64,000 nt of DNA from Methylocystis hirsuta (GTDB taxonomy: Bacteria; Pseudomonadota; Alphaproteobacteria; Rhizobiales; Beijerinckiaceae), in assembly GCF_003722355.1 (NCBI RefSeq), contig NZ_QWDD01000001.1, forward strand, positions 930,001 to 994,000, read 5' to 3'. Position 1 is the first letter of the stretch, and every line of letters starts with the position of its first letter. The translations under genes were made by a program, and so were the position numbers. This document shows positions 1,177 to 26,313 of the stretch, in pieces. The notes below the pieces were generated by a model. It ran no database searches and was not told the origin of the DNA. It saw nothing but the letters and a program-made list of their open reading frames with translations.

Positions 1177-2418
1177 CTACGCTTCAAGTGAATGGCCGAC
1201 GTCGGCGGCGCCGCGGAGATTGCGCGGCGCGTGAAATTTCGAGATCGCTTCCTCGACGGCGTCGAGCGCGAGATCGAGGTCGTCTTGCGATATGACGAAG
1301 GGCGGCGCCAAGCGCACGACCGTGTGATGCGTCGCGGTCGTCAGCACCCCCTTGGCGAGCAGGCCCTCGCAGATTTCTCGCGCCGTGGCATGGTTCGGGT
1401 CTATCTCAACGCCGGCCCAGAGGCCGCGCCCGCGAACTTCGCTGATCGCCGGAGCGCGCATCGCGTGCAGCCGTTGCAGCATTCTCGCGCCAAGCGCTTG
1501 GCTGCGTTCGACCAGCCGTTCGTCGCGAATGACATGCAGCGCCTCTAAACCAACGGCGGCGGCGAGAGCGCTGCCGCCGAAGGTCGACCCGTGCGAGCCG
1601 GGGGTGAAGACATCCATCACCTCGCGTTTCGCCACGAAAGCGGAGACGGGCAGAACGCCGCCGCCGAGCGCCTTTCCCAGCATCACGCCGTCGGGAAGGA
1701 TATTCTCATGCTCAAAGGCGAACCAGGCGCCGCTGCGCCCCAAACCCGATTGGATTTCGTCCAGCAGTAGCAAAACGCCGCGTTCGTCGCACAGTCGGCG
1801 CAGCCCCGTGAGCCAGCCGTCCGGCGGCACGATGACGCCTGCCTCGCCCTGGATCGGCTCGACGAGAATGGCGGCGGTCCGCGGAGTGATGGCGGCTTCG
1901 AAGGCGGCGAGATCGCCAAACGGGGCGGCGCGAAAGCCCGGCATGAACGGACCAAACCCCTCCCGATACTCGCGCTCCGAGGAGAAGCTGATGATCGTGG
2001 TTGTGCGGCCATGGAAATTGCCCGCGGCGACGATAATCTCTGGGTCGGCGATGCCCTTTACCCGATTGGCCCAGCGGCGCGCCGCCTTGATTGCCGTTTC
2101 CACCGCCTCGGCGCCGGTGTTCATCGGCAATGCGACGTCGAGCCCTGTCAGGGTGCAGAGCTCTTCGAGAAACGGCGCGAGCCGGTCATTGTAAAAGGCT
2201 CGCGACGGCACCGCGAGCCGCTGCGCCTGCTCAGCGAGCTTTGCAAGGATTCGGGGATGCGCGTGACCGAGGCTGACAGCTGAATAGGCGCTCATCATGT
2301 CGATGTAGCGCCGGCCTTCCACATCCCACAGATATGCGCCCTGTCCGCGCGTGAGTACGACGGGCAGCGGGTCGTAGTTTCTGGCGACGTGCGGGTTCCT
2401 GAACTCCGAGTTGTCCAT
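1177..2418 (-). CDS. Class III omega-aminotransferase, ornithine/lysine type (RocD-like)
   Basis: A 413-residue PLP-dependent class III aminotransferase. It shows the family signatures in order: N-terminal DVEGRRYIDMMSAYSAV, the NTGAEAVETAIKAARRW phosphate-binding region, FHGRTTT, the LLLDEIQSGLGRSG motif with the PLP-contacting Asp, and the Schiff-base lysine in GVMLGKALGGG. Length and motifs best fit ornithine delta-aminotransferase (ornithine to glutamate semialdehyde). The frame is open further upstream, but ATG at 2418 starts the conserved protein. It diverges from an ALDH7 gene and lies near a 2-oxoadipate decarboxylase, so an L-lysine epsilon-aminotransferase role, giving the ALDH7 substrate, is a reasonable alternative. 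The exact substrate is inference. Confidence 0.85.
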   Translation of the reverse strand: MDNSEFRNPHVARNYDPLPVVLTRGQGAYLWDVEGRRYIDMMSAYSAVSLGHAHPRILAKLAEQAQRLAVPSRAFYNDRLAPFLEELCTLTGLDVALPMNTGAEAVETAIKAARRWANRVKGIADPEIIVAAGNFHGRTTTIISFSSEREYREGFGPFMPGFRAAPFGDLAAFEAAITPRTAAILVEPIQGEAGVIVPPDGWLTGLRRLCDERGVLLLLDEIQSGLGRSGAWFAFEHENILPDGVMLGKALGGGVLPVSAFVAKREVMDVFTPGSHGSTFGGSALAAAVGLEALHVIRDERLVERSQALGARMLQRLHAMRAPAISEVRGRGLWAGVEIDPNHATAREICEGLLAKGVLTTATHHTVVRLAPPFVISQDDLDLALDAVEEAISKFHAPRNLRGAADVGHSLEA

Positions 2419-2442
2419 ATCCGAGAGCTTTTGGCGCGCATT

Positions 2443-2459
2443 CGCATTGGATAAATGCG
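2443..2459. promoter_or_regulatory. Palindrome in the divergent aminotransferase/ALDH7 promoter region
   Basis: The 130-bp gap between the divergent starts holds a perfect interrupted palindrome, CGCATT-N5-AATGCG, 25 bp upstream of the aminotransferase ATG. A second inverted pair (ATGTGC...GCACAT, 16-nt spacer) lies closer to the ALDH7 gene, around 2470-2500. Either could be an operator for a local regulator. No regulator gene is adjacent, so this is inference from symmetry and position only. Confidence 0.4.
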
Positions 2460-2548
2460 TGCGAACGTTCAATGTGCTGACTACATTACATGGGCACATG
2501 CGGGGCGCGGCGCCAGCCGCGCAGCAGCCGCGAACGTCGGGAGTTGAA

Positions 2549-4087
2549 ATGGAGGCGCGCGCTTTAGATCCTGGGCTCGCCGGGGAAGCCGCGACCCTCC
2601 TGCGCAAGCTGGGGGTCCAATCACAGACGTTTGAGCGCGGCCCGGTGACGATCCGCTCGCCGATTAACGGCGAGATCATCGCGCGCGTCGACGGCGTGGA
2701 TTCGGCGGCCGCGCATGGCGCCATCGCCCGCGCGGCGAAGGCGTTTCGCATCTGGCGCAACGTCCCGGCGCCCCGCCGTGGCGAGTTCGTGCGGCTGCTG
2801 AGCGAGGAGCTGAGGGCGGCCAAGACCGAGTTGGCGCGTCTTGTCACGATCGAGGCGGGCAAGATCACCACGGAGGGTCTCGGGGAAGTCCAGGAGATGA
2901 TCGACATCTGCGACTTCGCCGTGGGCCTCTCGCGTCAGCTCCACGGCTTGACCATCGCGACCGAGCGCCGCGGCCATCGGATGATGGAAACCTGGCGCCC
3001 GCTCGGCGTCGTCGGCGTGATCACCAGTTTCAACTTTCCGGTCGCGGTTTGGGCCTGGAACGCGGCGCTGGCGCTGGTCTGCGGAAATACGCTGGTTTGG
3101 AAGCCTTCGGAAAAGACTCCGCTTGTGGCGCTTGCGACCCAAGCGCTGTTCGAGCGCGCCGCAGCGCGTTTCGGCGATGCGCCCGAGGGGCTTTCAACCG
3201 TGCTTGTCGGCGGGCGCGACGTCGGTGAAATGCTTGTCGAAGACGCGCGGGTTCAACTCGTTTCCGCGACGGGTTCGACGGCGATGGGGCGCGCCATCGC
3301 GCCGCGCCTCGCGTCTCGCTTCGCGCGATCGATTCTGGAGCTTGGCGGCAACAACGCCGCCGTCGTTTGCGCCTCCGCGCCCCTTGATCTCACTGTGCGA
3401 GCGATCGCCTTCGCGGCCATGGGCACAGCGGGCCAGCGATGCACGACGCTCCGGCGGCTGATCGTTCATGAAGACGTCTATGACGACCTTCTCGGTCGCT
3501 TGCGGCGCGCCTACGCCACGGTTCCGGTCGGCGATCCCCGAGACGGCGCCGCGCTTGTCGGCCCGCTCATCGATCAGAACGCCTATGCGGCGATGCGCGC
3601 CGCGCTCGACGAAGCGCGCGCAGCAGGGGGCGCCATCCTCGGCGGAGAACGCGTGCTGACGGAGACATTCCCCGACGCGTTCTACGTGCGGCCGGCGCTC
3701 GTCGAAATGCCGGGGCAGACGGACGTCGTGCGGCGGGAGACATTCGCGCCCATCCTTTATGTGATGAAGTTCCGCAGCCTCGACGAAGCGATAGCGCTCA
3801 ATAACGATGTCGCACATGGCCTTGCGTCATCGATCTTTACCGCGCGTCTGGACGAAGCCGAGCGCTTCATGGCCGCCGACGGATCGGATTGCGGCATCGT
3901 AAATGTGAACATCGGACCTTCCGGCGCCGAAATCGGCGGAGCCTTCGGGGGCGAGAAGGACACCGGCGGCGGCCGCGAAGCGGGATCCGACTGCTGGAAG
4001 TTCTATATGCGTCGGGCCACCAACACGATTAACTATTCAGGCGAACTGCCGCTGGCGCAGGGCGTCAAATTCGATCTGAGTGTTTAG
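2549..4087 (+). CDS. amaB: ALDH7-family L-aminoadipate-semialdehyde dehydrogenase
   Basis: A 512-residue aldehyde dehydrogenase of the antiquitin/ALDH7 type. Diagnostic elements are VITSFNFPVAVWAWN, ELGGNNAAVV (general-base Glu), GTAGQRCTT with the catalytic Cys, and FAPILYVMKF. This family oxidises alpha-aminoadipate semialdehyde (or its cyclic piperideine-6-carboxylate form) to 2-aminoadipate with NAD in lysine catabolism. The frame extends to 2411, but ATG 2549, preceded by GGGAG, starts the conserved protein and gives the usual length. It diverges from a lysine/ornithine-type aminotransferase and is followed 71 bp downstream by the 2-oxoadipate dioxygenase/decarboxylase, which supports a lysine role. 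Confidence 0.85.
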   Translation: MEARALDPGLAGEAATLLRKLGVQSQTFERGPVTIRSPINGEIIARVDGVDSAAAHGAIARAAKAFRIWRNVPAPRRGEFVRLLSEELRAAKTELARLVTIEAGKITTEGLGEVQEMIDICDFAVGLSRQLHGLTIATERRGHRMMETWRPLGVVGVITSFNFPVAVWAWNAALALVCGNTLVWKPSEKTPLVALATQALFERAAARFGDAPEGLSTVLVGGRDVGEMLVEDARVQLVSATGSTAMGRAIAPRLASRFARSILELGGNNAAVVCASAPLDLTVRAIAFAAMGTAGQRCTTLRRLIVHEDVYDDLLGRLRRAYATVPVGDPRDGAALVGPLIDQNAYAAMRAALDEARAAGGAILGGERVLTETFPDAFYVRPALVEMPGQTDVVRRETFAPILYVMKFRSLDEAIALNNDVAHGLASSIFTARLDEAERFMAADGSDCGIVNVNIGPSGAEIGGAFGGEKDTGGGREAGSDCWKFYMRRATNTINYSGELPLAQGVKFDLSV

Positions 4088-4158
4088 CGCATGACGCTAC
4101 GCTCATGATTTCCGCCGCTGATGGATTAAATACCCGAGGGTAGCGAAGGTCCCAAAAA

Positions 4159-5604
4159 ATGAATGACGCTTCCGCTGACTCGATTCGGACGATGTTCGCA
4201 TCGGCGGTCTCGGACATGTATCAGGCCGAAGCGCCGCAGTATCGCGCGATGCAGGCGCTCGTCGCCGAGGTAAACCGGCAGACGCTCGCCGGCGAACCGC
4301 AACTCAAGCGGCGCCTCACGGAAAACAATGAACTCGAGCGACTCGACGTTGAGCGCCATGGCGCGATTCGCGTCGGAACCGCCGAGGAACTGTCGATGCT
4401 GCGCCGGCTCTTCGCGATCATGGGAATGGCGCCCGTCGGCTATTACGATCTGTCCATCGCCGGAATTCCGGTCCATTCGACCGCATTCCGTCCGATCGGC
4501 GAGAGCGCGTTGCGCGCCAATCCCTTTCGCATCTTCACTTCCCTTCTCAGGTTGGATCTCATCGCCGACGCGCAGGCGCGCGAGATCGCCGCCAAGGTTC
4601 TGGCGCAGCGCGACATTTTTACGCCGCGCTGCCGAACGCTGATCGATCTCTTCGAAAGACGTGGGTTCGACGATGGAGAGGCGCGCGAATTTGTCCTGGA
4701 AGCCGCGAAAATTTTTCGCTGGAACGGGCAGGCGACGGTTTCATCGGCGGTCTATCGGACGCTCCATGCGACGCATCCGTTGCTCGCCGACATCGTCTGT
4801 TTCAAAGGGCCGCACATCAACCATCTCACCTTGCACGCGCTCGATATCGACGCCGCGCACAGCGCCATGGCGGCGCGTGGCATGTATCCCAAGGCGATCG
4901 TCGAGGGGCCCCCGCGCCGCCGCTGCCCGATCCTGTTGCGCCAGACGAGCTTCAAGGCGCGCCCCGAGCCTGTCGAATTCATCGAGGAAGACGGCCGGCG
5001 CGTGACGGGCGCCCATGCCGCGCGTTTTGGCGAGATCGAGCAGAGAGGCGCGGCGCTGACGGCGAAGGGCCGCGCGCTTTACGACAGGCTTCTCGCCGAA
5101 GCTCAGGCCGCGGTTCCGCTCGCGACGGACGGCGCCAATGCGCTCGCGTTTAACGAGGAGCTGGCGCGGCGCTTCGCGGCGTTTCCCGACGACGATGAGA
5201 CGCTGCGGCGCGAAGAGCTCTCCTACTTCCATTATTCGGTCGATCCAAGCGCGAGGGGAAGTGAGCCGATGTCTCCTCCCTCGTTGGATGACCTTCTGCG
5301 GACTGGAACTCTGCGCGCCGAACCGATCGTTTACGAGGATTTCCTGCCGGTCAGCGCCGCAGGGATCTTTCGCTCGAATCTTGGGGAGCAGGGTGAAGAG
5401 GAATTGGTCGAGCGCGCCGACCGACGCGCCTTCGAGGCCGCGCTCGGCGCGCCGGTTTTCAATGAGCTCGCGCTCTACGAGGAAGCGGAGACGCACTCCT
5501 TAGGCGCAAGCCTGCAGGCGCTTGGCGTCGATCGCGCCGCTTCGGTTCAACCGCCAAAAACGGGCGCCGCGCCTATTGGCGCGGCGGAAACCAGCCATAA
5601 CTGA
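4159..5604 (+). CDS. hglS: 2-oxoadipate dioxygenase/decarboxylase (HglS/YdcJ, DUF1338)
   Basis: A 481-residue member of the HglS/YdcJ family, Fe(II)-dependent enzymes with a vicinal-oxygen-chelate core that convert 2-oxoadipate to D-2-hydroxyglutarate. Recognisable blocks are ERHGAIRVGT (the His and Arg of the metal/substrate site), MGMAPVGYYDLS followed by PVHSTAFRP, and GPHINHLTLHALD with another metal His. Starts at ATG 4159, downstream of the ALDH7 gene and on the same strand. Together with it and the aminotransferase, this suggests lysine breakdown via aminoadipate toward 2-oxoglutarate. The aminoadipate transaminase and D-2-hydroxyglutarate dehydrogenase are not seen in the window. Confidence 0.87.
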   Translation: MNDASADSIRTMFASAVSDMYQAEAPQYRAMQALVAEVNRQTLAGEPQLKRRLTENNELERLDVERHGAIRVGTAEELSMLRRLFAIMGMAPVGYYDLSIAGIPVHSTAFRPIGESALRANPFRIFTSLLRLDLIADAQAREIAAKVLAQRDIFTPRCRTLIDLFERRGFDDGEAREFVLEAAKIFRWNGQATVSSAVYRTLHATHPLLADIVCFKGPHINHLTLHALDIDAAHSAMAARGMYPKAIVEGPPRRRCPILLRQTSFKARPEPVEFIEEDGRRVTGAHAARFGEIEQRGAALTAKGRALYDRLLAEAQAAVPLATDGANALAFNEELARRFAAFPDDDETLRREELSYFHYSVDPSARGSEPMSPPSLDDLLRTGTLRAEPIVYEDFLPVSAAGIFRSNLGEQGEEELVERADRRAFEAALGAPVFNELALYEEAETHSLGASLQALGVDRAASVQPPKTGAAPIGAAETSHN

Positions 5605-13554: not shown

Positions 13555-16161
13555 ATGGAAACCGTCGCGGCCGATCGCGCCATTCTCGACGCTTTCGATG
13601 AGGCTCTTTGTATCCTCGAGGCGTCGGGCGCCCTGCGATCGATGAACCGAGCCGCCGAACGTCTCACGGGCTATTGCGAAAGGGAGCTTCGCGGCCAGCC
13701 GTTCTTTCCGCGGCTTCTCGCGCCAGACGCCGATGATTGCGAGCCTCCGTCGCCGTCGCCGTCGCCGCGCGCCCGCGAGCGGCTGTCCCTGCGCATTCGG
13801 CGCAAGGATGGACGAACGCTTGACGTTCGATGCGAGATCGACGCGCTTTCCGGCAATGGCGATGGCGGATCGTTGCTCAAACTTCGTTCTGTCGACGGGC
13901 CGACTGAGGCGGATGCGCTCGACGAGACGACGAAAAAGCTTGAAACCATCTTCGGCGGCATGGTCGACGGTCTCGTCGTCATCAACGAGGCCGGCGACAT
14001 ATTGCTCTTCAGCAGAGGCGCGGAGAAGCTGTTCGGCTACCGCGCCGAAGAAGCGCTCGGAAGAAACGTCAAGATGCTGATGCCCTCGCCCTATCGCGAG
14101 GCGCATGACGGCTATCTCGCCGCCTACAGGGAAACCGGCGTCAAGAAGATCATCGGCGTCGGCCGCGAGGTCGTCGGACGGCGCAAGAACGGCACGACGT
14201 TCCCGATGTATCTCTCGATCGGCGAAATCTGGCTCGACGGCACGCGCTACTTTGTCGGCGTCACCCATGATTTGACGCGCCTGAAACGCGCCGAAGACCG
14301 GTTGCTGACGCTCTCCGCCGCCGTCGAACAAAGTCCGATCGCGGTGATGATCACCAATAAGGATGGCGAGATCGAATATGTGAACAGCCGCTTCGCCAGC
14401 CTGACCGGCTATCCGCCGCATGAGCTCATCGGCCGCAATCCGCGGATGCTTCAATCGAAGCGGACGGAGAGCGATCAATATCGGCGGCTCTGGGAGAGCA
14501 TTCGCGCCGGCGTTGAATGGCGCGGACAGATCCAGGACAGAAGAAAGGACGGCAAGCTCTATTGGGCTTCCGAAATCATCACCCCGCTGCGCGACGCGAA
14601 AGGCGAGATTACCCATTATCTCGCCATTCAGCAGGACATCACCGAACAGAAGCGCGACAAGGAGGCGCTGTTCGAGAGCGAACAGCGTTTCCGGCAGATC
14701 GCCGACATGGCCGGCGATTGGCTGTGGGAGCAGGATCCGGACGGCCGCTACACTTATAGCAGCGGCGCCGTCGAGGACGTGCTGGGCATGACGCCCGAAG
14801 AGATTCTCGGCAAGACTTATGTCGATCTCTTCGCCAAGGAGAGCGCAAACGACGCCGCTCTCAAGACGGCGCCGCGCCCGATCGCGCCGCGCCGGGCCTT
14901 CCATCGCGTCGTCAATCACTACCGTCACAAGAACGACGGCGACGTCTTCACCGAGTCGACCGGCGCGCCGATCTTCGACGAAGCCGGCCGACTGGTAAAA
15001 TGGCGCGGCGTCGACCACGACATCACCTCGCGCAAGACATTCGAAGACATGTTGCGCGTGCGCAACCGCGCGATCGAAGCGGTGCCGATCGGCATTGCGG
15101 TCTGGGACGCGCAGGCGCCCCGCGTTCCGAACATCTACGTCAATCCGGCGCTGAGCCGGATCACCGGCTTCACCCGCGAAGAGCTGCTCGGGCACAGCTT
15201 GCATCTGTTGCGCGGGCCGGAGACGGATCCTGCGGCGCTCGAGGAGATCCGCAACGCGATCGTGCATCGCACGAGCTGCCAGGTGGTGGTGAAATTCTAC
15301 CGCAAGGACGGCGTCTCCTTCTGGGACGAGCTCTCCATCTCGCCGGTCGCCAATGAGGCGGGGCGCATCACCCATTTCGTCAGCGTTCACGCGGATATTT
15401 CCGACCGCCGCCGCGTCGAAGAGAACCGCCACGAACTCGAAATCGCCAAGCAGATCCAGCTGTCGCTGCTGCCGAACGCGCCGCTGCGCACCCCGCATAT
15501 GGAGATCGCCGGAATCTGCGTGCCGGCGACGCATGTCGGCGGCGATTATTTCGACTATTTCGAAAATTCCGGCGTGGTCGACATCGTCATCGCCGACGTT
15601 TCCGGCCATAGCGTCGGCGCCGCGCTGATCATGACCGAAGTGCGCAGCACGCTGCGCGCCGAAACGCGAAAGGCGACCAACGCTTTGAGCGGGCCGGCGG
15701 AGCTGTTGCGCGACCTCAATGAGCTCCTGCACGAGGACCTGACCGCCGCGGACCTCTTCATCACCATGTTCTATTGCCGCTTCCTGCCGCAGACGCGCAC
15801 GCTGCAATACGCCAACGCCGGCCAAAATCCGCCGCTGCTGCTGCGCGCGGACGGCGCGGTGTGCGTGCAGCTCGACGCCGACGGCCTGGTGCTCGGCGTC
15901 GTCCGCGCGGTGGATTTCAAGGAGGGGAGCCTCGAACTCGCCGCGGGCGACAAGCTGCTGTTCTACACCGATGGAATCACCGAGGCGCAAAACCGCCAGG
16001 GCGACTTCTTTGGACTGGAACGCCTGTCCGCCGCTTTCATGCAGCATCGCGGGCTCTCGCCGCGAGACCTCATCAAGGCGGTGCTCGCCGACGTGCGCGC
16101 CTTCCGCGGCGCGGCGCCCGCAACGGACGACGTCGCCATGGTGGTGGCGCAAGTGTGCTGA
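13555..16161 (+). CDS. Multi-PAS PP2C (SpoIIE/RsbU-type) phosphatase with FixL-like PAS
   Basis: An 868-residue sensor phosphatase. Four to five PAS domains occupy about residues 1-610, and a SpoIIE/PP2C phosphatase domain fills about 630-868 (HVGGDYFDYF, IADVSGHSVGAALIM, FYTDGITEAQNRQG, ATDDVAMVV, carrying the metal-binding Asp residues). The second PAS is strikingly FixL-like: His184 in YREAHDGYL and Arg204 in GVGREVVGRR align with the heme-ligating His200 and O2-contacting Arg220 of Bradyrhizobium FixL, followed by NGTTFPMYLSIGE. It would dephosphorylate the STAS antagonist encoded at the start of the unit. Heme binding is inference. No membrane segments are seen, so it is cytoplasmic. Confidence 0.88.
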   Translation: METVAADRAILDAFDEALCILEASGALRSMNRAAERLTGYCERELRGQPFFPRLLAPDADDCEPPSPSPSPRARERLSLRIRRKDGRTLDVRCEIDALSGNGDGGSLLKLRSVDGPTEADALDETTKKLETIFGGMVDGLVVINEAGDILLFSRGAEKLFGYRAEEALGRNVKMLMPSPYREAHDGYLAAYRETGVKKIIGVGREVVGRRKNGTTFPMYLSIGEIWLDGTRYFVGVTHDLTRLKRAEDRLLTLSAAVEQSPIAVMITNKDGEIEYVNSRFASLTGYPPHELIGRNPRMLQSKRTESDQYRRLWESIRAGVEWRGQIQDRRKDGKLYWASEIITPLRDAKGEITHYLAIQQDITEQKRDKEALFESEQRFRQIADMAGDWLWEQDPDGRYTYSSGAVEDVLGMTPEEILGKTYVDLFAKESANDAALKTAPRPIAPRRAFHRVVNHYRHKNDGDVFTESTGAPIFDEAGRLVKWRGVDHDITSRKTFEDMLRVRNRAIEAVPIGIAVWDAQAPRVPNIYVNPALSRITGFTREELLGHSLHLLRGPETDPAALEEIRNAIVHRTSCQVVVKFYRKDGVSFWDELSISPVANEAGRITHFVSVHADISDRRRVEENRHELEIAKQIQLSLLPNAPLRTPHMEIAGICVPATHVGGDYFDYFENSGVVDIVIADVSGHSVGAALIMTEVRSTLRAETRKATNALSGPAELLRDLNELLHEDLTAADLFITMFYCRFLPQTRTLQYANAGQNPPLLLRADGAVCVQLDADGLVLGVVRAVDFKEGSLELAAGDKLLFYTDGITEAQNRQGDFFGLERLSAAFMQHRGLSPRDLIKAVLADVRAFRGAAPATDDVAMVVAQVC

Positions 16162-17023
16162 GGAAAAAGCGCGCACGAAAATGTCCCGCCGCCGTGCGGC
16201 GCGGGGGGCGAGCGGTCCGGGACGCCCCGGCCGTCGCTGGCCGCAGCGCAAGAATTGTCTTCGACTGCCGGTTTCTCCCGGACACGGATCGCGTCGTCTC
16301 GCCGCCTCCGGGCTGAGGGAGCCGCTCCCCATCGTTCGGGTAACCGACGCCTGCGCCATCCTCGGATATTGTGGTCCGGGCTTTCAAAGCCTGCACATGA
16401 GCTTCGCTAAGCCTTGCGGCTCTTCGAAGGGCTCATGCGTCTCCGCGCAAAGGAGAGAAGCCCAGACCGGCGACGCGCCGCCGGACCAGGGAACGAGGGT
16501 CGTTCGTCCCGCCGGATCCGTCCCTCGCCGGCGCCGCTCGACCCTGAGCCGCGCCCTCGCTTGACGAAGGCAGGCGGAGGATAGGAATTTATTCAGTGGA
16601 TGTCAAGAGGGCCGCGGGCGAGGCCAATTTTGAAGTAAAAATTGCTACTTTCAATAGTGAGTTACTTCCTCCAGGACGCGACCGGCAACTCGCTTATGGC
16701 GCCCGGTCGAGTCAATGTCCGTCTCAAGGGCTTTGAGTATCGGGTAGCGTCTCAGTTTGAGTTTAGGCTGTGGAAAAAAAAGCGAAAACTTTTGGCTGCC
16801 AGGCGGGATGGCCCCTTCGCGCCAGAAGCGGACATCGGCTGCTTGCCCGAAGGCGGTCCTTTGTCAGGCGATTGACACGACTAGCCCGATTCAGAAGAGT
16901 TTCGACGTCGGTCAAGGGGTAAGGATGGGGAGGAGAATCAACGTCGCTTCGTCAGAAGGGAGGCGGGCAGAGTCGCAGCACGCTCCGTATTGAGGAATTG
17001 ATGCCGTTTGTTAGATAGATGTG
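16162..17023. other. 860-bp stretch without a convincing gene
   Basis: No open frame here has a recognisable product. Composition drops from GC-rich to AT-richer around 16590, marking entry into the variable region. A short inverted repeat, TTGAAGTA-N8-TACTTTCAA, lies at 16630-16654. At 16743-16769 there is a 27-bp sequence whose inverted partner is at 22423-22449. A 77-codon frame at 16642-16875 shows no known family features. Confidence 0.5.
16743..16769 (+). repeat. Left member of a 27-bp imperfect inverted repeat
   Basis: The 27-nt sequence beginning GGTAGC and containing the core GTCTCAGTTTGA matches the reverse complement of 22423-22449 at 22 of 27 positions. The two face inward and bracket the Mrr/STAND gene and its inserted IS66, as terminal inverted repeats of a transposon would. 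No matching target duplication was recognised outside them. Confidence 0.5.
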
Positions 17024-18605
17024 ATGCCAAACTACGATTTTTCTCAACTCTCCGCGTTCGATTTCGAAATGCTAGTGCACGGCCTGCTCGAAAAGGAGTT
17101 GGGTTGCCGGATTGAGGCGTTCAAGTCCGGCCGAGACCGAGGAATTGACTTGCGATATTCGTGCCCGTGGCTTGGAACGAAGACGGTCATTCAATGCAAG
17201 CACTATGTCGGATCAGGATTTAGTAAGCTTCTAAGCAACCTCAAAAAGGATGAGGCACCGAAGGTATTAGCTCTGACTCCAGACCGCTATATGCTGGTAA
17301 CGTCCGTAGGCCTCACGCCAGACAACAAAGACGAGATCCTGAGTGTGTTCGAGCCCTACATCGGTTCGACCGACGATATCATCGGCCAGACCGAGATCAA
17401 CCAGCTCTTAGAAAAACACCCTGACATAGAGCAGAAAAACTTCAAGCTTTGGCTTACGAGCAAGGCCGTTTTGGACCGCGCAATTCACAACGCCGAACAT
17501 TGTCAGACGGAGTTTGCTATCGAAAAAGTCACCAAAAGGCTTCCTTTATATGTGCAGAACGACTGCTACCCGCGAGCGACAGAAATCTTGAGCAAAACCA
17601 ACGTCGTCATCATCTCAGGAGAGCCAGGTATAGGGAAAACAACGCTTGCGGATATGATCATGTTCTCGTTCCTGAGCGAGGGTTATACGCCTGTAATCAT
17701 AAAATCGGATCTGAAGGAAGGACGCTCGCTCTACAACAAGGGTGAGAAGCAGATATTTTACTACGATGACTTTCTCGGTCAGACATTCCTTCGAGAACGA
17801 CACGGCTTTTTGTTACGAAATGAAGATGCCTCTCTTATCGATTTTGTAGAGATGATCCATTTTTCGCCAAATGCGAAGCTTATCATGACGACGCGGGAGC
17901 ATATTCTTTCCAACGCGCTGTTGGGTTCGGAGCGTTTGCGCCGAAGCCCGCTTTTAGATCACAGGTGCATCATGCAGATCGCCGATTACGGACGGCCTGC
18001 AAGGGCCAGAATTCTTTATAATCATATCTATTTCAGCGATCTGCCGGAGAGCTATAAAAGAGCTCTGATCGACGATAACTTCTATGATGAGATCCTCAGA
18101 CATCGGAATTTCAATCCGCGTCTGATTGAATGGCTGTCGTCCTACAGGAGGATCAGGGAGACCGAACCCAGCAAATACCGCGAGTTCATCCTGGGGATTT
18201 TGCAAAATCCGCAAGAGATCTGGCACGAAGCCTTTCAGCGGCAGATCTCGGATTATGCGCGAAGCGTGCTCTTGGCGCTCTTCACCTTCGGGGGGAAGGC
18301 TGCGGTTAATATCCTTAGGATAGCCTGGAAGAACCTTAGCGAATTTGAGGCACGGAAGTACAACTATCCGCTGTCACCAGACGGCTACGAATCGGCATTG
18401 AAAGAGGTGGAGGGAAGCTTCGTCGCGATTACAAAGGGAATGGTCGAGTTTCTGAACCCCTCAATCAAGGACTTTATCACCGGCGAGCTAATTGCCAGTC
18501 CGGAACGACTGAGCGATCTAGTTCAAACCTCGTTAAGGTTTGAGCAACTTGTTACGCTGTGGCGCTGGTCATTGCAGTCAAAGAGTACTAGTTCTCGCGA
18601 GGTCA
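17024..18605 (+). pseudogene. 5' part of an Mrr-type nuclease / nSTAND3 NTPase gene, split by IS66
   Basis: Codes for the first 527 residues of a protein of about 769. The N-terminal 100 residues form an Mrr-like restriction-endonuclease fold: FEMLVHGLLEKELG, then GRDRGIDLRY and VIQCKHY, a D-(x)n-QxK catalytic pattern. A STAND-type P-loop NTPase follows: Walker A GEPGIGKTT near residue 200, Walker B-like IFYYDDFLG and LIMTTREH. Such fusions are typical of phage-defence STAND proteins. Translation now runs into IS66 and stops at 18637. Rejoining 18605 to 21459 keeps the frame and restores the C-terminal part. GTG 17021 is an alternative start. Base composition is AT-richer than its neighbours. 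Confidence 0.82.
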
Positions 18606-18710
18606 GTATCCCTTCGCCGGCGGCCGCCTGGCTTTGAACTCGATTTTGGAGATAGCTGTCTGAAGAGTGGCTCGATGATCGTGTCCACTTGAGCCACATG
18701 GACACTATCA

Positions 18711-19091
18711 TTGATATCGGTCGGCAAAGACGGCGAACTGGCGCCGATCAGGCGCAAACGTCGGTCCTGGAACCGGGACGACAAGCGTCGGATCGTCGAT
18801 GAGAGCCGCGAAGAAGGCGCATCGATTGCCGAAGTGGCGCGGCGGCACGCGCTTAACGCCAATCAGCTTTTCACCTGGCGCCGAGAGTTCAACCTCGACC
18901 CTGCCGCGCGGAAGACTATCACGCCAATACTACCGGTGACGATCGCGCCGGACACCGCCGCAGAAGGTTCCACTTCGGGATCGCGCGGCCAGATGGAAAT
19001 CGTTCTTTCGGAAGGCGACCGGATCCTCGTCTGGGCTGATGTCGAGACGGCGGCGTTGTCGCGCGTATTGAAGGCGCTGTCGCGGCGATGA
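18711..19091 (+). CDS. tnpA: IS66 TnpA-like accessory protein
   Basis: A 126-residue protein with an N-terminal helix-turn-helix of the IS66 Orf1/TnpA type: RRSWNRDDKRRIVDES, then IAEVARRHALNANQLFTWRREF. The frame opens with TTG at 18711. Its end overlaps the tnpB ATG by 4 bp (ATGA), typical of the translationally coupled IS66 genes. Confidence 0.88.
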   Translation: MISVGKDGELAPIRRKRRSWNRDDKRRIVDESREEGASIAEVARRHALNANQLFTWRREFNLDPAARKTITPILPVTIAPDTAAEGSTSGSRGQMEIVLSEGDRILVWADVETAALSRVLKALSRR

Positions 19092-19435
19092 TTCCGATTC
19101 CGAACGGCGTCAGGGTCTGGATTGCGACTGGGCATACCGACATGCGGCGCGGCATGCAGGGTCTGGCGCTTCAGGTTCAGGAGACTCTGAAGCGCGATCC
19201 TCATGCGGGCGATCTTTATATTTTCCGAGGTCGCCGCGGTGATCTCGCCAAGATCCTTTGGCACGATGGAATCGGGCTATCGCTTTACGCCAAACGATTG
19301 GACCGCGGAAAGTTCATATGGCCGTCGGCGTCGGGGGGCGCAGTGTCGATCTCGGCGGCGCAGATGGCGTATATGCTCGAAGGGATAGACTGGCGGAATC
19401 CGCAACTGACATGGCGGCCCAAGAGCGCCGGTTAG
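19088..19435 (+). CDS. tnpB: IS66 TnpB-like accessory protein
   Basis: A 115-residue protein with the IS66 Orf2 pattern: MIPIPNGVRVWIATGHTDMR near the start, then GDLYIFRGRRGDLAKILWHDG and GLSLYAKRLDRGKFIWP. In IS66 elements TnpA and TnpB assist the TnpC transposase; their biochemical role is not well defined. It overlaps tnpA by 4 bp. Confidence 0.9.
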   Translation: MIPIPNGVRVWIATGHTDMRRGMQGLALQVQETLKRDPHAGDLYIFRGRRGDLAKILWHDGIGLSLYAKRLDRGKFIWPSASGGAVSISAAQMAYMLEGIDWRNPQLTWRPKSAG

Positions 19436-19519
19436 CGTGCGCGGATTGCGTCGAAAAAATTGGGGTCGCGTGCATTTTAGGGCGGCTCAAATCACGCGAT
19501 TTATGATTCACTTCGTCTC

Positions 19520-21172
19520 ATGGATGCCGCTCGCGCCGTTCTTGCCCGAGAAAACGCCGCCCTGAAAGCGGCGCTGGCCGTTGCGCAGACCAAGAGCCTG
19601 GACGTTGCGGCGGAACTGGCGGTCGCCCGCGCGAAAGCGTCGGAAGACATGGCGCTGATCGCGCAGCAGAAGCTTCGGATTGCGAAACTGGAGCGTCAGG
19701 TCTATGGGCAGCGGTCGGAGCGCTCGGCGCGGCTGATCGATCAACTGGCGCTCACCTTCGAAGAGCTGGAAACCAGCGCGACGGAAGACGAGCTTGCCGC
19801 CGAAAGGGCCGTCGCCAGGACGACGACGGTCGCTGGATTTACGCGCAAGCGCCCGGAGCGCAATACGTTCCCCGACCACCTTCCGCGCGAGCGCGTGGTG
19901 ATCGACCCGCCGACGGCATGCGAATGCTGCGGGAGCGCTCGCCTGCGCAAGCTCGGCGAGGATGTGACGCGCACATTGGAAACGACGCCCCGTCAGTGGA
20001 AGGTCATCGAGACGGTTCGGGAGAAGTTCACCTGCCGGGATTGCGAGAAGATCAGCCAGGCGCCGGCGCCATTCCATGTGATTGCGCGGGGATGGGCGGG
20101 GGCGAGCCTGCTGGCGATGATCGTGTTCGAGAAGTTCGGCCAGCACCAGCCTTTGAACCGTCAGGCCGAGCGTTATGCCCTGGAAGGCGTGCCGATCGCG
20201 CTGTCGACCATGGCCGACGCTGTGGGCTCGGTGTGCACAACGCTCGAACCGCTCCTTCGCCTTGTGGAATCTCACGTCATGGCGGCCGAACGCCTGCATG
20301 GCGATGATACGACCGTGCCGGTTCTGGCCGAAGGCAAAACCGATACCGGGCGGTGCTGGATTTATGTTCGAGACGACAAGCCGTTCGGCGGCGCCGGGCC
20401 GCCGGCGGCGATGTTCTATTACTCGCGCGATCGCCGGGGCGAGCATCCGCAGGCGCATCTGGCGGGATATGCCGGCATCCTGCAAGCCGACGCCTATGAC
20501 GGATACAACAGGCTCTATCTGGCGGACCGCAAGCCTGGCCCGGTCAAAGAGGCGGCGTGCTGGGTTCACGCGCGGCGCCCCTTCTTCGCCATGGCTGATC
20601 TGGACGAAAACGCGCGCCGCAAGGCTGCTGGCAAAAAGGAAATCCCTTTGTCGCCGATCGCGATCGAGGTCGTTCGCCGCATCGACGCCCTGTTCGAGAT
20701 CGAGCGGTCCATCAATGGAAAGAGCGCCGAAGAACGCCTGGCGGTCCGCCGCACGCTGAGCGGGCCGCTGGTCGATGATCTGCGGGTCTATTTGCGCGAG
20801 CAGGCGGCCAGGCTCTCGCGCGGGCACGACCTGGTCAAGGCTATCAATTACATGCTCAAGCGTTGGGCCGCGTTCACGCTATTCCTTGACGACGGACGCG
20901 TGTGCTTGTCCAACAATGCTGCGGAACGAGGGCTAAGAGGCATCGCGCTGGGAAGAAAATCATGGCTGTTCTGCGGGTCAGATCGCGGAGGGCAGCGCGC
21001 TGCGGCCATGTACAGTCTCATTGTCACAGCCAAAATGAATGGCGTCGATCCGCAGGCTTGGCTCGCAGACGTTTTGTCACGTATCGCCGCCCATCCAGCC
21101 CACCGGATTGATGAACTGCTGCCGTGGAACTGGGCGCCACAAGGTTCGACAATCTCCGCTCGTGCGGCCTGA
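19520..21172 (+). CDS. tnpC: IS66-family transposase TnpC
   Basis: A 550-residue DDE transposase. An N-terminal coiled-coil/leucine-rich stretch is followed by a Cys zinc-finger-like pair ([22 protein letters not shown]), the catalytic core ([23 protein letters not shown]; then the Glu region near [21 protein letters not shown]) and the IS66 C-terminal domain ([19 protein letters not shown]). It appears intact, so the element may still be able to move. Confidence 0.92.
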
Positions 21173-21174
21173 TC

Positions 21175-21407
21175 ATGCACGTCAACAAAATCGCCCACGT
21201 CAGGACGATCAGCCTCGTCGCCAAACAACTCGGCGAAAACGAGGATTGGCTGTTTGACGTCGCCGCCGAGATGGAGCCTGAAGACGGCCTCATATGGTCT
21301 ACGGGATCGGGGACGACGGCGTTATGGCGTTCACCGCCTTCGGGATCGAAACCTTGGTCGAGCTGATCAAACTCTACAAAGATGATCCAACGCTTTTGAA
21401 GCGTTGA
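21175..21407 (+). pseudogene. IS66 passenger small protein, one-base frameshift
   Basis: ATG 21175 begins MHVNKIAHVRTISLVAKQLG. The frame reads through GLIW at about 21297 and then becomes nonsense. Shifting by -1 there restores a sensible continuation (YGIGDDGVMAFTAFGIETLV, ending TLLKR) to a stop at 21405-21407. The composite of about 78 residues resembles small proteins often found after tnpC in IS66 elements. This is either a true one-base lesion or a sequencing error. Function unknown. Confidence 0.6.
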
Positions 21408-21450
21408 ACTCAGGAAACTGCGAAGCCCGCGGTCTACGCCGGATGGCTAC

Positions 21451-22186
21451 CGAGGTCATTGGCGGTGCGAACGAGCAATTCGTGTCGGCCGTCGAAGCAG
21501 CGATTGCCCGGCCATATCGGCTGGTGACCATCTTTGAGAAGGGTAGCGCAGAGAAAAGGGTCGATATTTATCCGGAAGAACGCTTAGCGGCCCTGATAGC
21601 AATGACCGATGACCTGCAATCCGAAAGGCTGCTCGCCCTTGTGCCAACCGTCATCAATTCAGTCTTGGAGAGGTGGGAAGAGACGGCGCCTGATTTCGAG
21701 GAGACGACGGGCATTCTCTTCCACATGGAGGAGGAGAACTGGAGCAGGGCACGACTCGATCCGGCCTTATACGAGACCCTTCGCGGGCAAATGTTCGCTA
21801 ATTTGGAGCACGCCTATTCGTTTATTGATTTCATGCATGTCGAAAGCTTTCTGAATGAAACGAAAATCGCAGCAACAGATGATGAGAACGAGTCCGTTTC
21901 CTCGGGGTTCGGCAGTTATATCAGCTCACAATTTTCGCAGGACCTCTACGATACGAGCTCAAGCAGCGAAGCTCTCGACGATATGGCAGATTTCTTCTCG
22001 CGAATGATTCGTGAGCATGGATACGATATATCCGAGGAGTACGGGCGTGTCATGGAATTGCTCGCGGAGCGCGATGAACGCGCCGAGCGCCACGCCGATG
22101 AATATCGAGGCGCATGGCAAGGTGAACGGAATTTTGAAAGGGCTGATGAGGAATCTATTTCGAGCATGTTCGATAGTCTCAGATAG
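21451..22186 (+). pseudogene. 3' part of the Mrr/nSTAND3 gene, separated by IS66
   Basis: After the second copy of the target duplication, the frame continues GGANEQFVSAVEAAIARPYR to a stop at 22186, adding about 242 residues to the upstream part. This C-terminal region is acidic and helical with no catalytic motif I recognise; in STAND proteins this position usually holds the sensor region. An ATG within the IS border (21443) could start a separate product, but no ribosome site is evident. The link to the 5' part rests on frame restoration after removing the IS and one 8-bp repeat. Confidence 0.8.
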
Positions 22187-22422
22187 CGCTCGTTCTCGGT
22201 AAGGACGCTGCGCACCGGCTGCAGCCAACTTCCTGGCGATCGACCGAGCGACGACTGGCCAGTTAGAAGAATGACCTGATCCGTGACGCGAACCCGTAGC
22301 GTATGAGCCATCCTGTGGTCCGCAATAGTGGAAAAAAACCAAGGATATGCCCTTTCAATGGCAGGAAAGGGTCAAATCAAGTCAGTCATCATCCACTCGG
22401 TGAGCGACTGCTACGGGACGTA

Positions 22423-22449
22423 AGCCGAAGTTCAAACTGAGACATTACC
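22423..22449 (-). repeat. Right member of the 27-bp imperfect inverted repeat
   Basis: The reverse complement starts GGTAAT and contains the same GTCTCAGTTTGA core as 16743-16769 (22 of 27 identical). It lies about 240 bp after the end of the split Mrr/STAND gene. The bases between 22187 and 22422 contain no gene I can support. Confidence 0.5.
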
Positions 22450-22504
22450 GAGTGTCGGATGTTAAACTGGTGTGACAATCTATGGGCTGCCGAAGGGCGG
22501 CGCG

Positions 22505-22540: not shown

Positions 22541-23709
22541 CTGGAGACCTTTGCACGAATCGGGCGGCGTGATTCACTCTTTCCGAAGAGCGGGAGGATG
22601 ATCATGCCGAAGCGTCGGGTTGGGCAGCTTGATTTTGTCGATGGGCTGATTGCGCAGCGTTCACTGTCGCGGCCTTCGGCTCTGATGGAGATTGCGGGTC
22701 TCGTCGACTGGGCGCCGTTCGAGAAACTCTTGAATGCGCTTCCGGTCGCGGCGAGAGGCGAGCCGTCCTATCCGGCGCTCGTCATGTTCAAGGCGCTGCT
22801 CTTGCAGCGCTGGCATGGCTTGTCCGATCCGGAGATGGAGGCGGCGCTGGCCGATCGTCTGAGTTTCATGGCCTTTGCTGGCCTGTCGGTCGGCGATCCG
22901 ACGCCGGATCACTCCACGATCTGGCGATTTCGCGAGAAGCTTGGCGTCCATGGTCTGCTCGACAAGCTGCTTGCCGAAGCCAATCGCCAGATCGCGGCGG
23001 CCGGCCTGATGGTCAGGCAAGGAACCATGATCGACGCGACGCTGGTGACGAGCGCCGCGCGGCGTCCGCGCATGGACGAAGGCAAGACGAGCGCGACAGA
23101 CAAGGAGGCGCGGTTCGGCACAACCAATGAACGTGGCCGTTTCGCCTTCGGCTACAAGATGCATGTCGCCGTCGACGCCGGCTCTGGCCTCGTGCGCAAC
23201 ATGAAGCTGACGCCGGCCAATGTGCAGGACGTCGCGGTGGCGCCGCAGCTGCTCGACCATGCGGACGGGGTCGTCTATGCGGACCGCGGCTACGACAGCG
23301 ACGGATTGCGCGCAGAGCTGGGGCGCCGCGACCTGGGCGACGGCCTCATGCGCAGAAGGCGCGGCCGGCCGCTGACGGCGGCGGAGATCCTGCGCAATCA
23401 CGAACTGTCGCTGACTCGACGCGCGGTCGAAAGCCTGTTCGGCACGATGAAGCGAACTTATCGGCTTGGCCGCATGCGCGCCTTTACGCAATCGCGCAAC
23501 GTCGCCGATCTCACGCTCTTCTGCCTCGCCTTCAATCTGCGTCGCTGGCGCGTCCTCGCCGCGCCGTAAGCGCCACCGGCGTCGCTCCAAGGCGTTCTAG
23601 CGACGAGGCGCATGCAGCCGCCCGCACTCAACCCATGCCTTCAAGGCGATCAAACCGACCCAAAACACGCTACTCGCGCCAAAACACCTTCCCGTGCAAA
23701 AGTCTCCAG
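22541..23709 (+). mobile_element. IS5-family insertion sequence (about 1.17 kb)
   Basis: A single transposase gene is flanked by inverted repeats: the left end reads CTGGAGACCTTTGCACG, and the right end read inward gives CTGGAGACTTTTGCACG (one mismatch in 17). Position and size fit an IS5-type element. The flanking bases (catc / catg) do not form a perfect duplication, so the precise ends are uncertain by a few bases. Confidence 0.82.
22604..23569 (+). CDS. IS5-family transposase
   Basis: A 321-residue DDE transposase with the IS5 N-terminal domain (ALVMFKALLLQRWHGLSDPE, then DPTPDHSTIWRFREKL) and the catalytic core (GTMIDATLV with the first Asp, VYADRGYDSDGLR with the second, and RAVESLFGTMKRTYRL carrying the Glu). 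ATG 22604 follows GGGAGG by 6 bp; the frame extends upstream without support. It appears intact. Confidence 0.92.
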   Translation: MPKRRVGQLDFVDGLIAQRSLSRPSALMEIAGLVDWAPFEKLLNALPVAARGEPSYPALVMFKALLLQRWHGLSDPEMEAALADRLSFMAFAGLSVGDPTPDHSTIWRFREKLGVHGLLDKLLAEANRQIAAAGLMVRQGTMIDATLVTSAARRPRMDEGKTSATDKEARFGTTNERGRFAFGYKMHVAVDAGSGLVRNMKLTPANVQDVAVAPQLLDHADGVVYADRGYDSDGLRAELGRRDLGDGLMRRRRGRPLTAAEILRNHELSLTRRAVESLFGTMKRTYRLGRMRAFTQSRNVADLTLFCLAFNLRRWRVLAAP

Positions 23710-24929: not shown

Positions 24930-25026
24930 GGCTGCTCCTTGCTTCGTGTCGGTCATTTCTACGAGCGATCGGGTGAAGGTTTCCTTGCATGTTTGTCATG
25001 GCCCCGCGACTCGCGAAGAAGGGGCT

Positions 25027-25058
25027 GAGTTCCGGGGGATGGCCATCCCCCGGAACTC
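25027..25058. repeat. Perfect 32-bp palindrome upstream of the IS110 transposase
   Basis: GAGTTCCGGGGGATGG is followed immediately by its exact reverse complement. It lies 101 bp upstream of the transposase start, in the non-coding segment 24930-25158. IS110-type elements keep a structured bridge RNA in a non-coding end, so this palindrome may be part of that end or a border structure. The IS ends were not identified. Confidence 0.6.
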
Positions 25059-25158
25059 GGACGAACGGGACCGTGGTTTCCTTGGCTCGAACCGTGGATG
25101 AGCTTGGTCCGTTCGTCCTCGCGCTCGGCCTGAACAGATGATTGGGAGCACGTCCCGA

Positions 25159-26130
25159 ATGCAAGGCAAGGCATTGCCCGACCAAAGCGCGCAAGCGCAA
25201 GTTTACGTCGGCGTCGACGTCTGTAAAGACTGGCTCGACGTTTATTTCCATCCGCTTGGCAAGGCCCTGCGGATCGCCAACGACCGTCACGGCTTGAAGC
25301 ACCTGAAACGCGCGTGCGAAGGCGTCGCCATCGCGCGCCTCGTTTTGGAGGCGACCGGCAAGTATCATCGGCAAGCGCATCGCAGCCTTCATGCGGCGGG
25401 CCTGCCCGTAGCCGTGGTCAATCCGCTGCGTTCGCGATTGTTCGCCGAGGCGGTTGGCGCGCTCGCCAAGACCGATCGGATCGACGCGCGCATGCTGGCG
25501 TTGCTTGGCGCGCGCCTCGATCCGGCCGCCGCGCCGCCGGCAGGCGAAGCCATGGACGGGCTGCAGGAGCTCGTGCGCGCCAGGCAATCCGCCGTGGCCG
25601 ACAAGACCGCGCTCTCCAATCGCGCCGGCGAGGCTGAAACGGATTTTTTGCGCGTCGAGCTGGCGCAGCTCATCGCCGAGGCGGAACGTCATATTGCTCG
25701 CCTCGACGAAGAGATCGGACGACGCATCGACACCGACGAACGGCTGGCCGAGCGCTTTCGCATCCTTTTGTCGATCAAGGGCGTCGGCCCCATCGCGGCG
25801 ATGACGCTCCTTTCCTGTCTTGGCGAAATCGGCGCTTGCTCGGGAAAAGGCGCGGCCATGCTCGCGGGCCTCGCCCCGATCGCCCGCGACAGTGGCGACA
25901 AAAATGGCCAGCGGCGCATCCGCGGAGGGCGCGCCCATGTGCGGACCGCCCTCTATATGGCGGCCGTCGCCGCCGCGAGATGGAACCCTGATCTCGCCGC
26001 CTTTTACAAACGTCTACGCGAAAACGGAAAAGCCGCCAAAATCGCCATCACGGCCGTCATGCGAAAAATCGTCGTTCTCGCAAACGTCCTCATCCGTGAA
26101 AATCGTCAGTGGACCCCAACGCGGCCTTGA
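25159..26130 (+). CDS. IS110-family transposase
   Basis: A 323-residue DEDD recombinase. The N-terminal RuvC-like domain shows VGVDVCKDWLDV (first Asp), LEATGKYHR (Glu) and KTDRIDARMLALLG (Asp pair). The C-terminal domain shows LLSIKGVGPIAAMTLL, LAGLAPIARDSG and the serine-containing RGGRAHVRTALYMAAV region. ATG 25159 or the upstream ATG 25138 could start it. It looks intact. The noncoding 5' flank of about 200 bp is where a guide (bridge) RNA would be expected in the IS110 subgroup. Confidence 0.9.
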   Translation: MQGKALPDQSAQAQVYVGVDVCKDWLDVYFHPLGKALRIANDRHGLKHLKRACEGVAIARLVLEATGKYHRQAHRSLHAAGLPVAVVNPLRSRLFAEAVGALAKTDRIDARMLALLGARLDPAAAPPAGEAMDGLQELVRARQSAVADKTALSNRAGEAETDFLRVELAQLIAEAERHIARLDEEIGRRIDTDERLAERFRILLSIKGVGPIAAMTLLSCLGEIGACSGKGAAMLAGLAPIARDSGDKNGQRRIRGGRAHVRTALYMAAVAAARWNPDLAAFYKRLRENGKAAKIAITAVMRKIVVLANVLIRENRQWTPTRP

Positions 26131-26141
26131 CACAAAACACA

Positions 26142-26313
26142 GATGCTCATCCTAAAGGAGCGTGCGGAGCACGCGTCTCGAGGTTTCCTCATCCTGAGGA
26201 GCGTGCGGAGCACGCGTCTCGAAGGACGAGGAAACCGTCACGCCGTCTTCTGGAACTCGCCCTCGTGCTTCGAGACGCGCCTTTCAGGCGCTCCTCAGCA
26301 TGAGGGCGAGGAT
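26142..26313. repeat. Cluster of three palindromic intergenic repeats
   Basis: Three copies of an imperfect palindrome (cctcatcctgaggagcgtg...cacgcgtctcgaagg and its inverse) lie at about 26142-26183, 26186-26230 and 26259-26311, the last in opposite orientation. The same family occurs at 27366-27421 and, interrupted by IS5, around 22505/23710. Confidence 0.8.

Follow-up and report, generated by a model that had tools for sequence, protein, structure and literature searches.

A probable PDC-S73 nuclease-STAND gene of Methylocystis hirsuta, a phage-defence candidate apparently acquired horizontally and recently inactivated by IS66

A 64,000-nucleotide stretch of the Methylocystis hirsuta genome (hereafter the window; G000:C1:930001-994000 in a 4.2-Mb genome of four contigs) carries two open coding pieces separated by an insertion sequence (IS) of the IS66 family, which raises the question of whether the two pieces are halves of one gene, how recently they were parted and what the undivided protein did. 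Overall, the STAND protein encoded at this locus is probably a single-gene member of the PADLOC group PDC-S73 whose gene was acquired horizontally and recently inactivated by the IS66 insertion. This reading was drawn from the domains, the clean insertion, the collinearity with intact single-gene homologues, the recent amplification of the IS and the accessory location of the gene. The initial annotation of this DNA was in the main right, as its domains, IS66 element, target duplication and junction were all confirmed.

The coordinates of the split gene, the IS66 element and the segment around them are as in Table 1. The left and right copies of CGAGGTCA were identical and exactly bracketed the element, and the two halves rejoined in frame, base for base as proposed, when the 2845-bp IS66 and one repeat copy were removed. 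The left frame was open for 527 codons from the ATG at 17024 and the right frame for 241 codons up to the stop at 22184-22186, while the 1 nt remaining on the left and the 2 nt leading the right completed a single common frame. The expected length of about 769 residues was right by count (527 + 1 + 241). The right half contained 7 and 17 stops in its two alternative frames, and none of 2000 base shuffles of either half was free of stops. The CGAGGTCA 8-mer occurred three times on the plus strand of the window, twice adjoining the IS ends, and not at all on the minus strand. The perfect duplication and the two open coding halves described earlier were both present in the window sequence. PDC-S73 is one continuous gene and here IS66 interrupts it at codon 528; the gene of the window is a broken PDC-S73 member.

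Table 1. Positions of the split gene, its domains, the IS66 element and the variable segment in the window.
Feature	Position	Strand	Details
Left part of split gene	17024..18605	+	Mrr-type nuclease domain, linker, nSTAND3 NTPase, then mostly helical region; 527 codons + 1 nt
Mrr_cat match, residues 8-64	17045..17215	+	Pfam E 1.3e-6; holds D38, D42, Q57, K59 (D...QxK)
nSTAND3 NTPase, residues 176-337	17549..18034	+	Pfam E 1.3e-47; Walker A GEPGIGKT from residue 199, YYDD from 246, TTR from 289
Left copy of 8-bp target duplication CGAGGTCA	18598..18605	.	Direct repeat
IS66-family element, 2845 bp	18606..21450	+	Imperfect terminal inverted repeats beginning GTA
IS66 first open reading frame (HTH_Tnp_1)	18711..19091	+	Pfam
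IS66 TnpB (TnpB_IS66, PF05717)	19088..19435	+	Pfam
IS66 DDE transposase (DDE_Tnp_IS66, PF03050)	19520..21172	+	Pfam
Right copy of 8-bp target duplication CGAGGTCA	21451..21458	.	Direct repeat
Right part of split gene	21459..22186	+	Fast-evolving C-terminal part; 2 nt + 241 codons + stop
Variable segment (gene, flanks, IS66)	~16619..22502	.	~200 bp instead in L038, L040; other DNA in six relatives

The hidden Markov model search suggested for Mrr_cat and nSTAND3 (PF20720) found both in the left half, each passing the Pfam cut-offs, which bore out the N-terminal Mrr-type nuclease and the middle STAND P-loop nucleoside triphosphatase (NTPase) first seen by pattern. The D...QxK pattern of Mrr-type PD-(D/E)XK nucleases was present as D38/D42 and Q57-x-K59, which we take to be the catalytic residues, and the alignment columns matching this pattern and the NTPase motifs were nearly invariant among the homologues. 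The best PADLOC model for the left half was PDC-S73 (PDLC05079, E 3.7e-161, profile positions 1-513 of 752), a single-gene phage-defence candidate of that database, and the homologues L007 and L010 covered nearly the whole profile. In addition, the first 158-177 residues of the left half matched the PADLOC models Aga_TIR- and Aga_REase-TIR-PNTD1-PNTD2 with E of 1.1e-38 and 6.3e-29. The N-terminal domain of L007 (3838-4320) was about 42% identical to that of TIR-annotated proteins (H56-H59) on rhizobial and Roseibium plasmids, and it appears to be a module swapping between defence architectures.

The right half was connected to the same family through its homologues. The left half aligned to residues 6-513 of L007 with 45% identity and the right half to residues 537-761 with 20.7% identity (E 3.6e-7), and further matches to the right half were obtained with L044, L043 and L048 (blastp) and L009 (phmmer). 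A C-terminal profile of L007, L009, L043 and L044, of which L007 and L009 match PDC-S73, scored the right half at 65.9 bits against 10.5 bits for the best of 2000 shuffles, with an alignment that reached the shared end F-D-S-L-R. Homology of the C-terminal part to PDC-S73 was found through this four-homologue profile, though the PADLOC profile alone misses the right half. These tests were independent of the alignments A1 and A2, both of which contain the right half as a row; MAFFT misplaced that row in A1 over most of its length except the end, and A2 was used for structure prediction.

The homologue counts were drawn from plasmids, phages, sampled genomes and contigs. A single frame of 748-825 codons was present in 17 of the 21 homologue loci, with 748-823 codons in L002, L004-L007 and L009-L016 (L011 and L016 are near-identical in scores and may be one gene) and 766-825 in L043, L044, L046 and L047. 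The other four loci were L008, which is broken, L048, and L049 and L050, which are two pieces of one genome. The matches of the closest homologues were collinear across both sides of the junction; the other intact homologues gave no detectable right-half match and only their frame length spans the junction. Separate genes in the orthologues, or the lack of any homologue spanning the junction, had been named beforehand as outcomes that would speak against a single gene, and neither was observed. Based on the single-frame homologues and the C-terminal profile score, the two halves belong to one gene of which the right half is the true C-terminus. Six intact homologues were compared in 15 pairs, and in every pair the C-terminal part was less identical than the rest of the protein (for example 33.3 vs 56.3% and 17.9 vs 40.6%); sequence comparison thus points to a weakly conserved, fast-evolving, sensor-like tail.

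The IS66 identity and the clean target duplication were confirmed by Pfam and the flanking repeats, as the element has three open reading frames with TnpB_IS66 and DDE_Tnp_IS66 and an 8-bp duplication. At least five full copies were found in the genome, a lower bound because 40 of the 122 candidates of the first look were scored, and all five had their own perfect 8-bp repeat. The window copy differed by 1 base from three other copies and by 2 from the fourth over 2845 bases, with a private base (IS position 880) found in none of the four others. Since at least five nearly identical copies each keep a perfect repeat, IS66 spread recently in this lineage and the insertion in the gene is young. 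The earlier description of an anti-phage gene recently inactivated was thus supported for its recency, while the anti-phage role is one that we infer. Two further observations concern the element. A possible further copy was seen at L022 (G000:C1:2589932-2590000), where the first 69 bases of the same IS66 are followed by N. By eye, a short frame after the transposase (window 21175-21407) appears to be shifted mid-way, and since the five copies have no mutual indels, all of them share this apparent shift.

The gene is located in a low guanine-cytosine (GC) segment, with a GC content of 49.4% in the left half and 52.5% in the right half vs 61.8% in the window. The upstream gene (13555-16161) was matched at E 1e-200 in 31 of 39 genus genomes, own included, and the downstream stretch was compared in eight of the 11 relatives that have the locus there. 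The flanks were in the same order in all eight relatives; two of them (L038 and L040) have about 200 bp in place of the segment 16619-22502 and the remaining six have different DNA of about 1.3-2 kb, and none of the eight had the left half at E 1e-20. As the site is nearly empty or otherwise filled in these relatives and none carries the left half, the gene was probably gained at a variable spot as an acquired low-GC segment. The variable site lies downstream of a PAS gene, and the eight relatives compared there are L035-L042. A SLATT-like label given by eye to a 178-codon cargo protein of L037 was dropped, as searches of Pfam at E 0.01 and of PADLOC at E 0.001 gave no match. Downstream, a DDE_Tnp_1 element (~22542-23703) and an IS110-family element (24985-26181) lie near the gene, which with IS66 makes three IS in 8 kb; both were absent at the matching place in L038. 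No RNA family reached gathering scores in the 16-24 kb part of the window, and a terminator scan found 4 vs 6.4 in shuffles.

The left half was found at E 1e-20 in 2 of 298 sampled genomes of the family, its own and one of another genus, so that the uninterrupted orthologues of the same genus that had been suggested for comparison were not found among these genomes. In the class the left half was found in 2 of 385 genomes, in the order the L007 protein found 7 of 397 and in the phylum the PDC-S73 model found 11 of 374 (own included in each case), where 2 of the 11 matched by the N-terminal domain alone. The own genome had no second copy of the left half (single match at E 0.01) and E. coli genomes gave no DNA match. 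A total of 56 of 72,556 plasmid records matched, 28 of them with a single region covering 80% or more of the query, and 31 of the 56 were typed conjugative; an intact natural homologue is carried by the Rhizobium ruizarguesonis plasmid p3 (L009). Only two of 50,697 phage records matched, both faecal contigs without annotation, and six scans of viral contigs gave one relative (L054). The surroundings were inspected in 10 of the 56 plasmid records and one of the two phage records. Four of the 10 plasmid regions had putative defence neighbours (DUF1837 with a DEAD helicase, SIR2, HEPN and AbiEii-like), which we take to be defence genes, and the gene was near repABC in two. On a Prosthecochloris plasmid (L010, 2099-5482), the homologue stands beside genes annotated as parts of a diversity-generating retroelement (Avd and RNA-directed DNA polymerase) and formylglycine-generating-enzyme-like proteins.

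Comparison with known systems placed the protein closest to PDC-S73, with a left half that fits the nuclease-STAND part of the profile, while the window copy differs by its split at codon 528. The order of an N-terminal nuclease and a STAND NTPase is also that of Avs4 (AVAST type 4), and the top solved match of Foldseek to the left-half model was Avs4 (8dgf), with an alignment that extends over the whole half from its N-terminus. This match supports a common domain order rather than shared fine structure. The Avs4 chain has 1534 residues, so that the 769 residues here are about half, and in place of its long C-terminal repeat sensor the protein has a C-terminal part of about 240 residues; in the model of a full-length homologue the part matching the right half was helical. 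The sensor of Avs4 is reportedly of TPR type and binds the portal, which is named in the title of 8dgf. The PADLOC matches with E up to 1 included no Avs model, and 8dgf was not among the sequence matches listed, including the best 60 of 156. Avs5 (SIR2-nSTAND3-repeat) likewise has an N-terminal effector followed by nSTAND3 and a variable C-terminus, and the left-half model matched the fold of its structure 9jap; however, the effector there is a SIR2 NADase and here an Mrr-type nuclease. With the TIR/argonaute-associated proteins of the two Aga models only the N-terminal domain of 150-odd residues is common, and in the protein of the window this domain is joined to a STAND NTPase.

Broken copies were also found elsewhere. 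The orthologue of G753 (L051, reverse strand 2275-4795) is cleanly split by a 2505-bp IS, called IS1595-like from its coding by eye, between perfect copies of CTTGCACG, and its empty site reads in frame when the IS is removed. In G1049 (L052, reverse strand 1280-5008), residues 327-761 follow an IS21-like istA/istB (by eye) and contain one internal stop, and the N-terminal part was not found within the 6.5 kb examined. A total of 14 carriers were counted (G000, G122, G450, G702, G753, G874, G947, G973, G1049, G1074, G1090, G1130, G1133 and G1205), leaving out G880 and G931, whose frames of 663 and 660 codons match by the N-terminal domain only, and the weak G339, which has a frame of 776 codons. 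Of the 14 carriers, 11 have the gene as one frame of 753-825 codons and three have it broken with an IS inside or next to it. The own genome was picked for its broken gene, and leaving it out gives two of 13. For a rough comparison, 3 of 86 PF18766 matches were in frames of less than 700 codons (Fisher p 0.13 without the own genome and 0.034 with it). This comparison is loose, because the PF18766 yardstick is a domain search, two of the three short frames that it gave are from small contigs and the carriers were collected with three different queries; an excess of IS-broken carriers is not established. The idea that PDC-S73 is a compact (~770-residue) protein of Avs4 layout with its own short sensor, whose cost repeatedly selects hosts to break the gene (by IS66 here, by the 2505-bp IS1595-like element in G753 and by truncation beside the IS21-like element in G1049), is put forward as a tentative and rather unlikely one.

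Several results weigh against the reading of the locus as an inactivated PDC-S73 defence gene. The right half had no match in Pfam, PADLOC and NCBIfam at E up to 1 or in PHROGs at 0.001, its search in the family genomes matched the own genome only, and tblastn in plasmids (E up to 1) gave no match, the last in line with the C-terminal divergence. The left-half model was moderately confident (predicted local distance difference test score, pLDDT, of 72.8 and predicted TM-score of 0.40), and the full-length homologue model had a poor tail with residues 671-760 under 50. The match to Avs4 had a TM-score of 0.27 on the query with a root-mean-square deviation of 16.1 (Foldseek) or 13.7 (VIA), and ORC chains scored higher while other AAA+ chains were about equal. 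In addition, 6 of the 10 plasmid regions had no neighbour confidently callable as a defence gene, and PDC-S73 is a candidate defence family for which the open-licence literature gave no paper by name and none joining nSTAND3, Mrr and phage.

Regarding the history of the locus, two naturally separate genes merely flanking an IS could be imagined from the Sinorhizobium (L008) and Priestia (L053) plasmid homologues, each annotated as two coding sequences. These copies are broken without an IS near codon 70 and codons 215-238, away from the junction of the window, and together with the 17 of 21 loci with one frame of at least 748 codons, the perfect 8-bp duplication and the matching reading frame they leave such an origin hardly credible; single-gene homologues matching both sides of the junction ruled it out. 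The gene may instead have arrived already carrying this IS66, which then spread from it through the genome. The gene itself is a newcomer, and full-length IS relatives in eight genus relatives reached at most about 78% identity, with pieces of about 250 bases up to 92% (37 of the 100-126 candidates scored per genome). In plasmids the best IS relative had 89.6% identity over 78% of the length, and Methylocystis and Methylosinus plasmids were among those with such relatives. However, no orthologue was seen to be interrupted by this IS, and the private base at position 880 gives no support to the window copy as the source, though it is possibly a later change; an arrival in the interrupted state is considered improbable.

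Regarding function, STAND proteins as described in PMC12931631 combine an N-terminal effector and a central NTPase with a sensor at the C-terminus, and Avs1-4 are nucleases that bring about cell death once the terminase, the portal or some other protein of a phage has been recognised. On this STAND/Avs model the undivided protein would act as a compact alarm with a nuclease effector, and by analogy we infer an anti-phage role for it. Its C-terminal part would sense a phage product and release the ATP-dependent STAND switch, the protein would oligomerise and the N-terminal Mrr-type nuclease would cut DNA, so that the infected cell would be killed or arrested as in Avs1-4. The presence of Mrr_cat would also suit a restriction factor, Mrr-like and directed at modification or plasmids, in place of a sensor of phage proteins, and so would the name "restriction endonuclease", which is part of the annotation in 15 of the 30 listed plasmid rows (of 56 records). 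The STAND NTPase with a variable tail is, however, the effector-NTPase-sensor layout of Avs proteins in that source, and the best solved-structure match was Avs4, so that a restriction factor is regarded as unlikely. In this strain the left half would yield at most a nuclease-STAND fragment without the sensor, plus ten residues, as the left frame continues ten codons beyond codon 527 over the junction into the IS. Since the cut parts the nuclease and the ATP switch from the sensor-like tail, loss of function is expected; the fragment should escape triggering and the system is most likely off. A truncated product that is still made and active, or that disturbs other STAND proteins, would mean a function changed rather than ended, and the left frame is open with its nuclease and NTPase motifs intact. 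Against this, STAND proteins are switched via the C-terminal sensor according to PMC12931631, so that sensor loss would presumably mean an inactive protein; a promoter scan gave 3 sites, none on the plus strand, with no excess over shuffles (mean 2.8), and selection would be expected against an unrestrained nuclease. An active fragment is considered very unlikely.

As a single case, the PDC-S73 gene broken by IS66 is ordinary, a well-preserved example of a defence gene switched off. It documents, to the base and with both halves still in place, the recent loss of a likely defence gene, and highlights a little-studied family of which intact members on rhizobial and other plasmids are directly testable. 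The repeated clean breakage and the short sensor-like tail may lift the case above the ordinary, and should a cost lie behind the repeated IS breaks, the family would be well suited to studying the trade-off between phage immunity and self-harm.

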